A stretch of 64,000 nt of DNA from Thermotoga sp. Ku-13t. Its GTDB lineage: Bacteria; Thermotogota; Thermotogae; Thermotogales; DSM-5069. A model generated the notes under the pieces. The model was given only the letters and a program-made list of their open reading frames with translations, did no database searches and was not told where the DNA came from. The stretch's first letter is position 1; each line of letters starts with the position of its first letter. The DNA lies in contig NZ_LNFY01000001.1 in NCBI RefSeq assembly GCF_011057685.1, positions 1-64,000 of the forward strand, written 5' to 3'. A program made the translations under genes and the position numbers. Of this stretch, positions 11,589 through 16,812 are shown piece after piece.

Positions 11589-13268
11589 TCAGATCGCAGT
11601 ACTCTCGGTGTATTCGCCGTAGACTTCTCTCAGGACATCGCTTATCTCACCGAGTGTCGCGTAGCATTTTACTGCTTCGAACACGTATGGAACGATGTTT
11701 CTACCTTCCTGTGCGGCCTGTTTCAGCTCTTTCAGTGCGTTTGCCACAGCGTTGTTGTCCCGTTCTTTTTTCAACTGCCTCAGCGCTTCTTTCTGTTTTT
11801 CCTCGAGTGTGGGGTCAACCTTCAGAATGTTCTCTATGGGTTTTTCTTCGCTGACCTGGAACGCGTTCACACCAACGACGATCTGTTCACCTTTCTCTAT
11901 GGCGAGCTGCTGTTCGTAGGCACTCTTGTGGATCTCCTTCTGAACGTAACCGAGCTCTATCGCGCGGACCATACCACCCAGAGAGTCGATCTTTTCCAAA
12001 TATTCCCAGACCTTCTCTTCGATCTGGTTCGTCAGCGCCTCGATCGCGAAAGAGCCTGCCAGAGGATCGACGATGTCCGCAACACCGGACTCGTACGCGA
12101 TGATCTGCTGGGTTCTCAAAGCAACCTGAACGGACTGTTCCGTCGGGAGCCCGAGCGCTTCATCGTACGAATTGGTGTGCAAAGACTGAGTGCCTCCGAG
12201 CACCGCGGCGAGCGCCTGTATCGCCACACGCACGATGTTGTTCAGCGGCTGCTGTGCCGTGAGGGTGGAACCAGCTGTCTGGGTGTGGAACCTCAGTCTC
12301 AGCGCTTCCGGGTTGCTGACGTTGAAACGTTCCTTCATGATCTTCGCCCAGATGCGCCTTGCGGCTCTGAACTTTGCGATTTCTTCCAGGAAGTTGTTGT
12401 GCGCGGCGAAAAAGAAAGAGAGCTGTCTTCCGAACACGTTCGGGTCCAGCCCCGCCTTGATGGCCGCTTCCACGTACGCGATCGCATCGCCGAACGTGAA
12501 CGCGAGCTCCTGAACGGCGTTGGCACCAGCTTCCCTTATGTGATAACCGCTGATGCTTATAGTGTTCCATTTGGGCATGTGCTTGGCGCAGAATTCGAAA
12601 ATGTCTGTGACTATCTTCATGGATGGTTCTGGTGGGAATATGTAAGTACCCCTGGCAATGTATTCTTTCAGGATGTCGTTCTGTATCGTGCCCCTGAGTT
12701 CCTCGAGCTCCGCGCCCTGTTTCTGCGCCGTCACAGCGTACATGCTCAGCAGTATGACAGCGGTGGAGTTTATCGTCATCGACGTGCTCACATCTTTCAG
12801 TGGAATTCCATCGAAAAGGATTTCTATGTCCCGCAAAGAATCAACCGCGACTCCCACGCGCCCGACTTCACCTTCGGCCAGGGGATGGTCAGAGTCGTAG
12901 CCGATCTGTGTTGGTAAATCGAACGCCACGGAGAGACCCGTCTGACCCTGTTGGAGCAGGTACTTGAAGCGCTTGTTGGTTTCCTCAGCGGTACCGAAGC
13001 CCGCGTACTGTCTCATCGTCCACAGTCTGCCACGGTACATCGTTCTCTGAACTCCGCGCGTGTAGGGGTACTCTCCGGGCATGTTGAGATCTCTCAGATA
13101 ATCCATTCCTGCCACATCGAGGGGAGTGTAGCATCTTTTGAACTCATAACCGGAGCTCGACAGGAACTTTTCCTTTCTCTCAGGGAACTTCCTCAGATCG
13201 TTCTCCAGCTGCGCCTGCCATTGTTGGAGAGCTTCTTCAATTCTCTTGAGATGTTCTTTATCGTACAT
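11589..13268 (-). CDS. Methylmalonyl-CoA mutase, large (catalytic) subunit
   Basis: A 559-residue acyl-CoA mutase TIM barrel, without its own B12 domain. Family motifs: [32 protein letters not shown] (read as TRGVQ and [11 protein letters not shown]), [18 protein letters not shown], the active-site text [18 protein letters not shown] and [10 protein letters not shown], and [14 protein letters not shown]. These agree with methylmalonyl-CoA mutase; isobutyryl-CoA or ethylmalonyl-CoA mutases are close relatives and cannot be ruled out. Starting at ATG 13268, it overlaps the radical SAM gene by 11 bases. No methylmalonyl-CoA epimerase or decarboxylase gene is in the window. Confidence 0.94.
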
Positions 13269-14067
13269 CCTTCAACACCCCCGTCTTCAAAAGTTTTACC
13301 AATACGAACGAACAACAACCTTTGAAATCTGGTTCAGTTCCGAACGCTGGCTTAACCATCACATGTGTGAACTCTCTTACTGATTCCTGAAGGGATCGTC
13401 TGTACTCACCGCGAGGTTGCATGCAACCGAGAGTGACAAGATCGAATTTTTCAGATGCGTATTGGAATATTTTCTTCACCTCCGACAGATCCGGTGGTAA
13501 GGCTCTGGAAAATTTGGTATTCTGCGTTGGGACGAACACGTTCAGAACAACGGCGTTGAAAAATCCTGACAGCGTTTCCAATGCCTCGTACTCGTGCGTG
13601 ATACGACCTTCGAAGATTCCGACCGTCACGTGTGGGATTGCTGGAACGCTGGTCTGTAAGATGGCGTTCAGAAGCTGCGTTGGTGGAACAGAAAATCCGT
13701 AGACTTTCTGCATGATCTTCGAATCGGCAAAGAAGTCGAAGCTCACGACGTCCGCCAGACCTTCAAGTTCTCTCAAAGGTGACAGTGGAAAACCGACGTG
13801 GAAATTGTAAGAAAGGCCGTATCTTCTTTTGAATTCCCAGAGTGTGCGCATGTGTTCTCTGAACGGCACGAGCAGATCCTTTTCCAGCCCGCCACTTATG
13901 AGAAAGCTTTTGTGGCCTTCCTGCGCGAGCTTTTCCATCTCCTGCAAGGTTTTCATGTGAGCAAGGTAGTGTCCACCGCAGTGTGCACAGTTCATCCGGC
14001 ACACATTGTTGGTCAGAGAAATAGGGATCGTTCCGCTCGGATCGACAAAGATCAAACCGATCACCAA
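13258..14067 (-). CDS. Radical SAM protein upstream of methylmalonyl-CoA mutase
   Basis: A 269-residue radical SAM enzyme. The [4Fe-4S] motif is canonical CX3CX2C at Cys23, Cys27 and Cys30 (VCRMNCAHC), close to the N-terminus, and GGLEKD near residue 62 matches the SAM-binding GGE position. Two adjacent Cys near the C-terminus (FKGCCSF) may hold another cluster or be structural. The product is unknown. It is first in the mutase operon and overlaps the large-subunit gene by 11 bases, so it is co-translated with the B12 enzyme. The start is TTG 14065-14067 or GTG 14062-14064; there is no ribosome site and a -10-like TATGAT ends only 5 bases upstream, so the mRNA may be leaderless. Confidence 0.82.
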
Positions 14068-14071
14068 AACA

Positions 14072-14108
14072 AATCATACCATCTTGTCCCGCACTTCGTG
14101 GTATGATT
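14072..14108. promoter_or_regulatory. Inverted repeat with divergent extended -10 elements
   Basis: AATCATACCA (14072-14081) and TGGTATGATT (14099-14108) are perfect inverted copies 17 bases apart. Each arm carries TGGTATGAT, an extended -10, pointing outward: plus toward the D-aminopeptidase gene, minus toward the radical SAM gene. No good -35 matches at the usual spacing. It may be two weak extended -10 promoters or a regulator-binding site covering both. Confidence 0.6.
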
Positions 14109-14137
14109 CGAGAAGGTAGAGGGTGAGGAGGGATCGC

Positions 14138-14980
14138 ATGAAGGTCTATATATCTGTTGACATGGAAGGGCTCGCCGGGATCGCCACCTGGGGGGAAGTC
14201 GATACTAGCAAGAAGGAAGCTTCCGAAGTGTTGTACGAACATTTGACAGCGTTGCTGCAGGGCCTGTTCTCCGCAAGGGTTCACATTGAGCACGTGCTGA
14301 TCTCCGATGCACACGGTTCGGGCACGGCCATACCCTACAGGATATGTGAAGACTTCGACAGGGTCAGTCTGGTGCACGGTCCGATCAGGAAAGATTACAT
14401 GATGAGCGGGTTGGACTCGTCGTACGACAGGGTCATCTTCCTCGGATACCACGCGGGTATCGGTACGAAGCACGGCATCATGGACCACACGTATTCGAGT
14501 TCTCTGATACACAGCGTCTGGATCAACAACAAGAGGATGAACGAGGCACTCATAAACGCAGCCTTTGCGGCTCATCATGGGGTGCCCATTTGCCTTGTTG
14601 TGGGAGACGAAGCGCTCGGTGAAGAGCTTAGGAACGAGTTCAACGGTAGATGGCTCTTCGTGTCCACAAAGACGGGACTGGGACGTTACGCGGCGATCAT
14701 GAAACCGAAGAGACAGTTATTTGAAGAGATAAAAAGCGCGGCAGCGCAGGCTCTCGAGATCCCCAGAAACGAACTGCCGCTCTTCAAATTTGAAAAGCCT
14801 GTGGAGCTGAAGATAGAACTGAAAGATACAGTGTACGCGGACCTTGCCGAGCTGATCCCGGGTGTGGAGAGGATCGACGGTCGCACAGTGAAATTCGTTC
14901 ACGACGACTACTCTGTGGTCTTCAACGCCATTATGGCCATAGTCTACGTGGCGATGGCTGCGAGGGACTGGAGGTCGTGA
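14138..14980 (+). CDS. M55-family D-aminopeptidase (DppA-like)
   Basis: A 280-residue zinc aminopeptidase. The metal ligands of B. subtilis DppA are in place: Asp8 and Glu10 in SVDMEG, His in SDAHGSG, His in LGYHAGIGT, and the MDHTYSS stretch. ATG 14138-14140 is chosen because GAGGAGG precedes it and the protein then starts MKVYISVDMEG like its relatives. DppA removes D-amino acids from peptides and is usually tied to peptide or peptidoglycan recycling. It is the first gene of an operon with a phosphate acyltransferase (3-base gap) and a degenerate sigma-54-type regulator, suggesting a link to amino-acid catabolism. Confidence 0.92.
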   Translation: MKVYISVDMEGLAGIATWGEVDTSKKEASEVLYEHLTALLQGLFSARVHIEHVLISDAHGSGTAIPYRICEDFDRVSLVHGPIRKDYMMSGLDSSYDRVIFLGYHAGIGTKHGIMDHTYSSSLIHSVWINNKRMNEALINAAFAAHHGVPICLVVGDEALGEELRNEFNGRWLFVSTKTGLGRYAAIMKPKRQLFEEIKSAAAQALEIPRNELPLFKFEKPVELKIELKDTVYADLAELIPGVERIDGRTVKFVHDDYSVVFNAIMAIVYVAMAARDWRS

Positions 14981-14983
14981 GCG

Positions 14984-15883
14984 ATGATGAGATCTCTTCG
15001 CGAGCTGCTCGAAAAGGCGAAACAGGCTGGAAGGAAGAATCTCGTCGTCGTCGGTGCTGAAGATGCAGAGGCTGTGGAAGCCACACTGATGGCGAAAAAG
15101 GAGGGTCTGGTGGGGCGAATCTTTCTTGTTGGAAACGCTCAGAAATTGAAAAGTTATGAGAACCTCACCGATATCGAGATCGTGGATAGCTGCGACGAGG
15201 TGGACGCGAGCGAGAAAGGGGTAAAGCTCGTTTCTTCGAAGAAAGCGGACGTTCTCGTCAAAGGATTGGTGAAAACTTCAGTCCTTCTCAAAGCTGTCTT
15301 GAATAAGGAATGGGGTCTCAGGGGTTCAGGTCTTTTGACGCACATCGTGGCGGTGGAAGTTCCCGTCCTCGACAGGGTCGTGTTCGTATCCGATGGGGGC
15401 ATCCTCATAAGGCCGTCGCTGGAAGAGAAGGTGAAGTTGATCAACAACGCGGTTGAGGTGATGCGCAAGCTCGGTTACGAAGCGCCGAAAGTCGCTCTGA
15501 TATGTGCCGTTGAGACGGTGAATCCGGCCATGCCGGAAACTGTGGAAGCAGCCATCCTCGCGAAGATGAACCAGCGTGGTGAAATCAGAAATTGCGTAGT
15601 GGATGGTCCGCTGGGGTTAGACAACGCTCTGGACCTGAGGGCAGCCGAGGTCAAGGGCGTGAAGAGTCCGGTCGCTGGACGCGCGGATCTTTTGATCGTG
15701 CCAGACATCCATTCCGGTAACTTCTTAGGAAAATCGGCGATTTACTTTGCGGGCGGTAAGATTGCTGGGATGGTCATCGGTTCGAAGGCGCCCATAGTGC
15801 TCGTTTCGAGGGCCGACACGGCGGAAAGCAAGTTACTTTCGATAGCCATGGCGTGTGCCACGAGTGGAGGAACGGGTGAATGA
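14984..15883 (+). CDS. ptb: Phosphate acetyl/butyryltransferase
   Basis: A 299-residue enzyme of the phosphate acyltransferase family that exchanges CoA and phosphate on short acyl groups. Features: VKGLVKTSVLLKAVLNKE and SGLLTHIVAVEVP in the middle, and DGPLGLDNAL with LLIVPDIHSGNFLGKSAIY in the second half, all of the Ptb rather than the longer Pta type. Butyryl, isobutyryl or acetyl substrates cannot be told apart. No butyrate kinase lies next to it. Its TGA overlaps the next ATG by 4 bases, so the regulator that follows is coupled to it. Confidence 0.9.
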   Translation: MMRSLRELLEKAKQAGRKNLVVVGAEDAEAVEATLMAKKEGLVGRIFLVGNAQKLKSYENLTDIEIVDSCDEVDASEKGVKLVSSKKADVLVKGLVKTSVLLKAVLNKEWGLRGSGLLTHIVAVEVPVLDRVVFVSDGGILIRPSLEEKVKLINNAVEVMRKLGYEAPKVALICAVETVNPAMPETVEAAILAKMNQRGEIRNCVVDGPLGLDNALDLRAAEVKGVKSPVAGRADLLIVPDIHSGNFLGKSAIYFAGGKIAGMVIGSKAPIVLVSRADTAESKLLSIAMACATSGGTGE

Positions 15884-16812
15884 TAAAGATACTGCTACCT
15901 GCGAATGTCCTCGGCAGTGTTGAGCTGTCATCCACCAAGGAAAAGTTGTTCATCGATGTCTACAACGATGGCGACTACGAAAAAAAGTTGCTCGAAGAAT
16001 TCTGGGACATCGTGATGGGACCCAAGAAGTTCGACACTTTCACCACCATCTTCGTGAGTTCCACCGATGCCGTGTCACTGGCCATCAAGTACCTTGAGAG
16101 CAGGATAGAGCTGGAGGAGATGAAGAAACGACACGAAGTGCTCTATAGCTACGCGGAACTGCAGGGGCCTACCTGTCACCAGGTTCTGAGAGAACTTCAA
16201 AAACTCAAACACGGTCCAGAGCAGATGATCGTCCTGGTCGCTGAAAGGGGAGTGCATTTGCTCGCGTATCTGGAATACCTTTCGGCTGGTAGATATTCTC
16301 AGATTGAGGAAACCGTTTTTGAAGTGCATTTAGATGGCAAAGCGAAGATGGTCCTTTTCAGTGAACACCCACTGGAGGGTTTCTACAATTTCCGCATCCC
16401 ACCGTTGAGGGAAAGGAAGAACGATATACCTTACATGGTGGACTGGACACTCTCTTCGATACATCAGAAACATAAATACCTGCCTGTGAACTTTCCCAGT
16501 GAGGAGATAATGGATCTGTTCCTGAAATACGACTGGCCGGGAAACACGGAAGAACTCATCAAGGTGGTTCACATGTACTCCGCCGGTCTCGACGTGATAG
16601 GTTATTTCGCCAGCTCGCTCCCGAACGTGGAGAAGGAAGAAGTCAGGCTGGTTGACTATGTGAAGAAGATCGTTGCCACCGTCGAGAAGAGAACCATAAA
16701 GACCATGCTCGAAAAGTACAAGTGGAATCGCAAGAAAGTTGCATCGATTCTTGGTTTGAACTACAAAACTCTATGTTACAAAATCAAGAAGTACGGTATC
16801 ACGAGACACTGA
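15880..16812 (+). CDS. Degenerate sigma-54-activator-like regulator with Fis-type HTH
   Basis: A 310-residue protein whose C-terminal half clearly derives from NtrC-type activators: FRIPPLRERKNDIPYMVDW, then YDWPGNTEELIKVV (the C-terminal end of the AAA+ domain), and a Fis-type helix-turn-helix at about 284-308 (RKKVASILGLNYKTLCYKIKKYGI pattern). Yet Walker A, Walker B and the GAFTGA loop that contacts sigma-54 are not recognisable; the region before it (about 80-165) has only weak similarity. It should bind DNA but not remodel sigma-54. Its 4-base overlap with ptb suggests control of the dppA-ptb operon or related amino-acid/acyl genes. In Firmicutes the ptb cluster is controlled by the sigma-54 activator BkdR, a plausible ancestor. 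Confidence 0.82.
   Translation: MIKILLPANVLGSVELSSTKEKLFIDVYNDGDYEKKLLEEFWDIVMGPKKFDTFTTIFVSSTDAVSLAIKYLESRIELEEMKKRHEVLYSYAELQGPTCHQVLRELQKLKHGPEQMIVLVAERGVHLLAYLEYLSAGRYSQIEETVFEVHLDGKAKMVLFSEHPLEGFYNFRIPPLRERKNDIPYMVDWTLSSIHQKHKYLPVNFPSEEIMDLFLKYDWPGNTEELIKVVHMYSAGLDVIGYFASSLPNVEKEEVRLVDYVKKIVATVEKRTIKTMLEKYKWNRKKVASILGLNYKTLCYKIKKYGITRH

Follow-up and report, generated by a model that had tools for sequence, protein, structure and literature searches.

What does a protein that resembles a sigma-54 activator do when its ATPase motor is gone, and did that motor decay because sigma-54 itself was lost? These questions are raised by an open reading frame beside a ptb-family phosphotransacylase gene of Thermotoga sp. 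Ku-13t, within the 64-kb stretch of DNA that was analyzed (the window). The original prediction regarded its product as an activator that was reshaped into a classical DNA-binding regulator, somewhat like TyrR, after the loss of sigma-54. We favor, with a probability of about 0.62, the reading that it is a sigma-54-independent, dimeric Fis-type factor derived from an NtrC-type activator, which acts in classical regulation, most likely of its own M55-ptb-regulator operon.

Loss of the motor motifs

The genes of the operon and the parts of the regulator are as follows.

14123 to 14980, forward strand: dppA-like D-aminopeptidase of the M55 family, which opens the operon and probably starts at ATG 14138
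14984 to 15883, forward strand: ptb-family phosphotransacylase, overlapping the regulator start by 4 bases
15880 to 16812, forward strand: motor-dead NtrC-type regulator, 310 aa, ATG start
15880 to 16149, forward strand: small alpha/beta N-domain and long linker helix, residues 1–90 (AF2 models, structure comparison, hhalign)
16150 to 16395, forward strand: shrunken AAA+ core, residues 91–172, from which the L1/GAFTGA hairpin and the strands of Walker B and sensor I have been lost by deletion
16240 to 16263, forward strand: dead P-loop AERGVHLL at the Walker A position, residues 121–128 (family alignment)
16408 to 16572, forward strand: AAA_lid_14, residues 177–231, with sensor II WPGNTEE
16672 to 16794, forward strand: Fis-type HTH (HTH_8), residues 265–305 (Pfam and structure comparison)

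The predicted coupling to ptb was borne out by the 4-base overlap and by the conserved neighborhood described below. Pfam searches identified AAA_lid_14 (E 1.3e-9) and HTH_8 (E 6e-12) in the regulator, confirming that the end of an NtrC-type AAA+ domain and a Fis HTH are clear, and the comparison with Sigma54_activat (PF00158) that had been proposed as a check gave no match even at E<=1. Matches to the NCBIfam models PrdR, DhaR, AtoC and NtrC were confined to residues ~170–308, and PHROGs added nothing further.

The family alignment showed Walker A, Walker B and GAFTGA to be missing, as had been claimed. The Walker A site reads AERGVHLL, versus the canonical GESGTGKE that the intact Ku-13t activator also has; deletions have removed GAFTGA, Walker B and sensor I; and no R-finger was recognizable in the alignment (there is no FRxDLYYRL). 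The Arg of sensor II has become Glu (WPGNTEE versus WPGNxRE). The core keeps ELQG (residues 93–96) and E122-x-G124, both of which are invariant across 13 aligned Thermotogales orthologues. The regulator is NtrC-type by descent, having AAA_lid_14, the Fis HTH and the NtrC fold, and shows none of the features of an active sigma-54 enhancer-binding protein (Walker A/B, GAFTGA, sensors, R-finger). A wrong frame or missed upstream motor exons were ruled out, as the ORF begins at the end of ptb and its orthologues share the start.

An AlphaFold model of the regulator, built from 8 sequences (pLDDT 85.7, pTM 0.60), matched NtrX (5m7p) with Z 12.0 over residues 1–307, the large rmsd being due to different domain placement, and NtrC1 (1ny5) with Z 11.5. 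Comparison with the AAA+ domains of FlrC, FleQ and NtrC1 gave Z ~11, the match covering no more than ~148 of ~250 residues, and in those of FlrC, FleQ and PspF ~148 residues aligned at ~3 Å. Residues 254–308 superposed on E. coli Fis with Z 9.2 and an rmsd of 1.0 Å. The model would place the regulator on the full-length NtrX/NtrC1 layout minus about 100 AAA+ residues. For the N-domain alone, the best structural match of the model had Z 6.4, with a receiver and the PrpR N-domain tied. Comparison with receivers by hhalign gave E 0.008, yet a probability of 5%, and the phosphoacceptor Asp is absent at the expected strand end of the N-domain (WDIVMG). No PAS signal was detected in the N-domain by hhalign against PAS profiles (E 0.18 or worse, full set). 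As modeled, the N-domain is alpha/beta and receiver- or PrpR_N-like; a PAS domain is not suggested.

Selection on the regulator gene

Orthologues of the regulator were found in 26 further Thermotogales genomes (27 with Ku-13t itself). The dN/dS (Nei-Gojobori, two nearest congeners) was 0.077 for the regulator versus 0.087 for ptb. Values by part between G000 and G001 were 0.04 for the N-domain, 0.08 for the AAA remnant and 0.05 for the HTH; that of the lid, 0.25, is noisy, with few synonymous changes. The low dN/dS in the N-domain and AAA remnant indicates that the leftover core is under selection and not the HTH alone. The reading as a pseudogene was ruled out by the overall dN/dS of 0.077 and by conservation in the 27 genomes.

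Sigma-54 in Ku-13t and in the class Thermotogae

The assumption that Thermotoga lacks rpoN failed for the Ku-13t genome and its family. In Ku-13t, rpoN was identified both by PF04552 (E 8.6e-25) and by a profile built from relatives (E 1.9e-117), with a GAFTGA-intact activator alongside. A spurious match was ruled out by the strength of this family-specific profile match and by the conserved RpoN box, SRRTVNKYRN. The presence of rpoN and of a functional Walker A/GAFTGA had been named together as observations that would speak against the original prediction; the first was found and the second was not.

All f1 genomes carry rpoN (in the incomplete MAG G005 as a fragment at the end of a contig), as do g6, g10 and g14 of f3, with the exception of the 60%-complete MAG G044, and most other families of the class. 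Sigma-54 in some Thermotogae has already been reported (PMC3162934). Profile searches found no rpoN in any of the 14 f2 genomes, in the Thermosipho group (g8, g11) or in f4. Weak PF04552 matches in f2 (E 1e-4) covered only ~36 HTH positions, in LacI-like or broken frames, and were counted as absent. There was no PF04552 match in T. maritima, one of the control genomes, and a literature search found no papers on Thermosipho and sigma-54.

The f5 rpoN is full length, at ~440 aa. The rpoN of f1 and f3 is short (~300–330 aa), with Pfam matches only to the DNA-binding domain and the initial portion of the core-binding domain, and its activity is putative. That of Ku-13t (G000:C10:271720) is unusually short at ~319 aa; its RpoN box is intact and no region I model matched. 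The exact -24/-12 consensus gave 1 match in the Ku-13t genome versus 6 for the reversed control, and since there was no enrichment the sigma-54 regulon is unreadable by exact consensus.

Order of motor decay among the relatives

In a tree with two kinds of GAFTGA-intact activator, 36 relatives of the regulator formed one clade (support 100/100), with long branches flagged within this motor-dead clade. An intact Walker A was found in 0/36, the nearest being GETGIDK in f4, and GAFTGA occurs in none of the relatives shown in the alignment. The f4 relatives, which keep GETGIDKL and VFFDNI, are closest to the ancestor. The f6/f10 and f5 relatives have a core that is full length but dead, and a Walker-B-like FIDDV strand is kept in f2 and deleted in f1 and the Thermosipho group. 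The Thermotogae relatives form a graded series of motor decay within one bacterial class. Activators that have given up sigma-54 are, as a rule, isolated examples whose AAA+ domain is complete.

Sixteen Thermotogales genomes without rpoN have the regulator gene. Motor-dead relatives coexist with rpoN in f5 (full-length) and in f1, and the least decayed P-loop is found in the rpoN-less f4, which indicated that decay in this family does not follow rpoN loss. The motor decayed long ago, and did so independently of rpoN.

The gene neighborhood is M55-ptb-regulator in g1 and g4 of f1, ptb-regulator in g3 of f1, M55-ptb-arcC-regulator in the Thermosipho group and g10, ptb-arcC-regulator in f5 and f6, and arcC-regulator in f4. 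The f2 regulator occupies the same chromosomal place as that of f1 g4, convergent with prfB/secA, and the operon-type ptb and M55 are gone from its side; the Fervidobacterium-type g6 has M55-ptb-arcC with the regulator absent. Based on the f2 and g6 arrangements, the targets of the regulator are not ptb alone. Outside f1 and f2, arcC (carbamate kinase) regularly accompanies ptb and the regulator (L109, L150–L154, L166, L101–L105), a partnership that points to fermentation of amino acids or purines.

The PAS-PAS activator as a natural control

The Ku-13t genome also encodes a PAS-PAS activator with intact GESGTGKE, GAFTGA and FLDEIG. Its G[AS]FTGA loop is kept in 21/21 rpoN-containing genomes of the order Thermotogales and lost its Thr in 8/8 rpoN-less genomes of the Thermosipho group (g8/g11). 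The altered g8/g11 loops read GAFLGA, GAFFGA, DAFMGT, GTFIGT or EPFLDK, or are deleted, and Walker A and B are intact. Outside these groups, G[AS]FTGA is also kept in the f5, f7, f8 and f11 genomes read, and the three rpoN-less f4 genomes have the same loss of the Thr. The rpoN-less f9 genomes have the loop deleted, but so do G090 and G100, in which there is an rpoN match and, besides the loop-deleted activator, a separate receiver-type one with GAFTGA; these exceptions show the rule connecting loop and rpoN to be imperfect outside the order. All these counts are of genomes and not of independent events, the losses numbering two or three.

The PAS-PAS activator is a case truly linked to rpoN loss, unlike the ptb-linked regulator, and its counterparts in the rpoN-less Thermosipho-group and f4 genomes are candidate AAA+ ATPases freed from sigma-54. 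Whether motor decay comes before or after the loss of sigma-54 is a question that can be answered directly in Thermotogae: in the ptb-linked regulator decay came before, and independently of, that loss, and in the PAS-PAS activator it is in genomes lacking rpoN that the contact loop disappears. The PAS-PAS activator loci surveyed were L002, L063–L091, L171 and L176–L178, those in the rpoN-less Thermosipho-group and f4 genomes having lost GAFTGA with Walker A/B intact.

The upstream inverted repeat

14072 to 14108, no strand assigned: inverted repeat AATCATACCA-N17-TGGTATGATT, between the divergent radical-SAM and M55 genes

The repeat that had been proposed upstream of the operon exists, with arms at 14072–14081 and 14099–14108, each of which is at the same time a plausible extended -10 (TGGTATGAT). 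Inverted repeats of similar size are not rare, with about 3 independent ones in the 64-kb window, so the value of this one rests on its conservation in congeners. Its position is kept in five congeners while the spacer drifts, with a single arm base changed in G002 and G003. Each genome has one copy of the repeat, which is confined to the genus. We consider it a candidate operator/promoter, and it may instead be a pair of divergent extended -10 promoters. No -24/-12 site was found within 2 mismatches between 12537 and 16727, and footprinting upstream of the gene in f2 and the Thermosipho group gave a -10-like sequence only, with no shared palindrome.

Divergent from M55-ptb, on the reverse strand (13258–14067), is a gene for a radical-SAM-like protein (CRMNCAHC), which is directly upstream of, and overlaps, the methylmalonyl-CoA mutase operon. 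The inverted repeat may also be part of the promoter of this gene, whose start codon nearly coincides with the predicted transcription start (leaderless). In L167 a comparable ORF is found near the PAS activator.

Comparison with known systems

Among the GAFTGA-less activators working at sigma-70 promoters are TyrR, DhaR, HupR, VpsR and the NtrC proteins of Rhodobacter and Caulobacter (PMC3162934, PMC10274813), and the regulator is an EBP homologue lacking GAFTGA as these have been defined (PMC3162934). It resembles the TyrR/VpsR/HupR kind in its NtrC-type lineage, Fis-type HTH and lost sigma-54 contact loop, and such proteins can coexist with rpoN (e.g., in Caulobacter), as the regulator does. 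Indirectly, its retention in rpoN-less genomes and the lack of a -24/-12 site near the operon point to sigma-54-independent action at sigma-70-type promoters. The regulator differs from these activators in having no P-loop, Walker B, sensors or R-finger, in the deletion of ~100 residues, and in forming a class-wide family. To our knowledge, the activators named keep a full-size AAA+ domain, mostly with a recognizable Walker A, and we know of none among TyrR, VpsR, HupR and Caulobacter NtrC that is as reduced. These four would be the analogues that the regulator works most like, and the TyrR-like action originally proposed was upheld as the best analogy.

With the NtrC/NtrX response regulators (receiver-AAA+-Fis) the regulator shares the domain order and, in the model, a whole-length structural match; it differs in having an N-domain cut to ~90 residues that is not provably a receiver, no phosphoacceptor and no motor.

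BkdR, the sigma-54 activator of the Firmicutes ptb-buk-bkd genes, is a PAS-type, GAFTGA-bearing protein. The regulator is like it only in its ptb neighborhood, and differs in showing no PAS signal against PAS profiles, in lying downstream of ptb and in having no bkd genes adjoining. The BkdR-type combination of GAFTGA and an rpoN-dependent ptb operon was not seen, as there is no GAFTGA and no -24/-12 site upstream within 2 mismatches. The alpha/beta N-domain left BkdR ancestry without support.

Proposed function

The retention of the regulator in rpoN-less genomes indicated that its function does not need sigma-54, and this persistence, together with the absence of an ATPase and of sigma-54 contact, argues for a classical DNA-binding regulator. 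A dimer would bind DNA via the C-terminal Fis domain, without the usual AAA+ ATP hydrolysis and without contacting sigma-54, and would repress or activate in the classical way at a housekeeping-sigma promoter, most likely that of its own operon. The N-domain and shrunken AAA+ core would be a scaffold and probably also the sensing part. The DNA target, the sign of regulation and the ligand are each ones that we infer.

It is possible, if unlikely, that the AAA+ remnant is a repurposed adenine-nucleotide/CoA pocket, through which the regulator would detect acyl-CoA, CoA or acyl-phosphate and adjust the expression of ptb. The invariant ELQG and E122-x-G124 flank the adenine pocket in AAA+ proteins, and the linkage to ptb and arcC is long; however, the invariance may be structural, and the f2 members have no ptb neighbor. 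A broader version, in which an ancient class-wide family turned the adenine pocket of the stripped motor into a CoA/acyl-CoA or acyl-phosphate sensor controlling the ptb-arcC operon, we consider doubtful. If true, it would be a one-component metabolite sensor evolved from a molecular motor.

Sigma-54-independent action is also preferred over an indirect service to sigma-54, in which the regulator, itself ATPase-dead, would partner or antagonize the intact PAS-PAS activator. Both rpoN and that activator coexist with it in Ku-13t, but it is kept where rpoN is absent, it lacks the surfaces on which an AAA+ ring assembles (R-finger, sensor II, L1) and the Fis domains of the two proteins differ, which makes this improbable. 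We give equally little credence to a Fis-like architectural protein that bends DNA at many sites with no effector: the C-terminal 55 residues do superpose on E. coli Fis, yet purifying selection is strong on both the N-domain and the AAA remnant, and the gene is tied to one metabolic operon in most lineages. That the regulator was reshaped into a classical one because sigma-54 was lost is very improbable, and is refuted for this lineage by its rpoN. Although T. maritima gave no PF04552 match, rpoN is absent from f2 and the Thermosipho group, and many of these genomes still carry the gene, rpoN is present in Ku-13t and throughout f1, motor-dead f5 relatives stand beside an rpoN of ~440 aa, and the activator that changes with rpoN absence is another protein.

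Another locus in Ku-13t

A divergent RNA polymerase beta'-like ORF (YNADFDGD) and a broken beta-like fragment were observed elsewhere in the genome (G000:C9, L094:2325-7694). This ORF adjoins CRISPR cas4/Cas_TM1802 genes and an HTH-less, sigma-54-activator-like AAA+ protein (GAYTDA), orthologues of which are also found in rpoN-less genomes.
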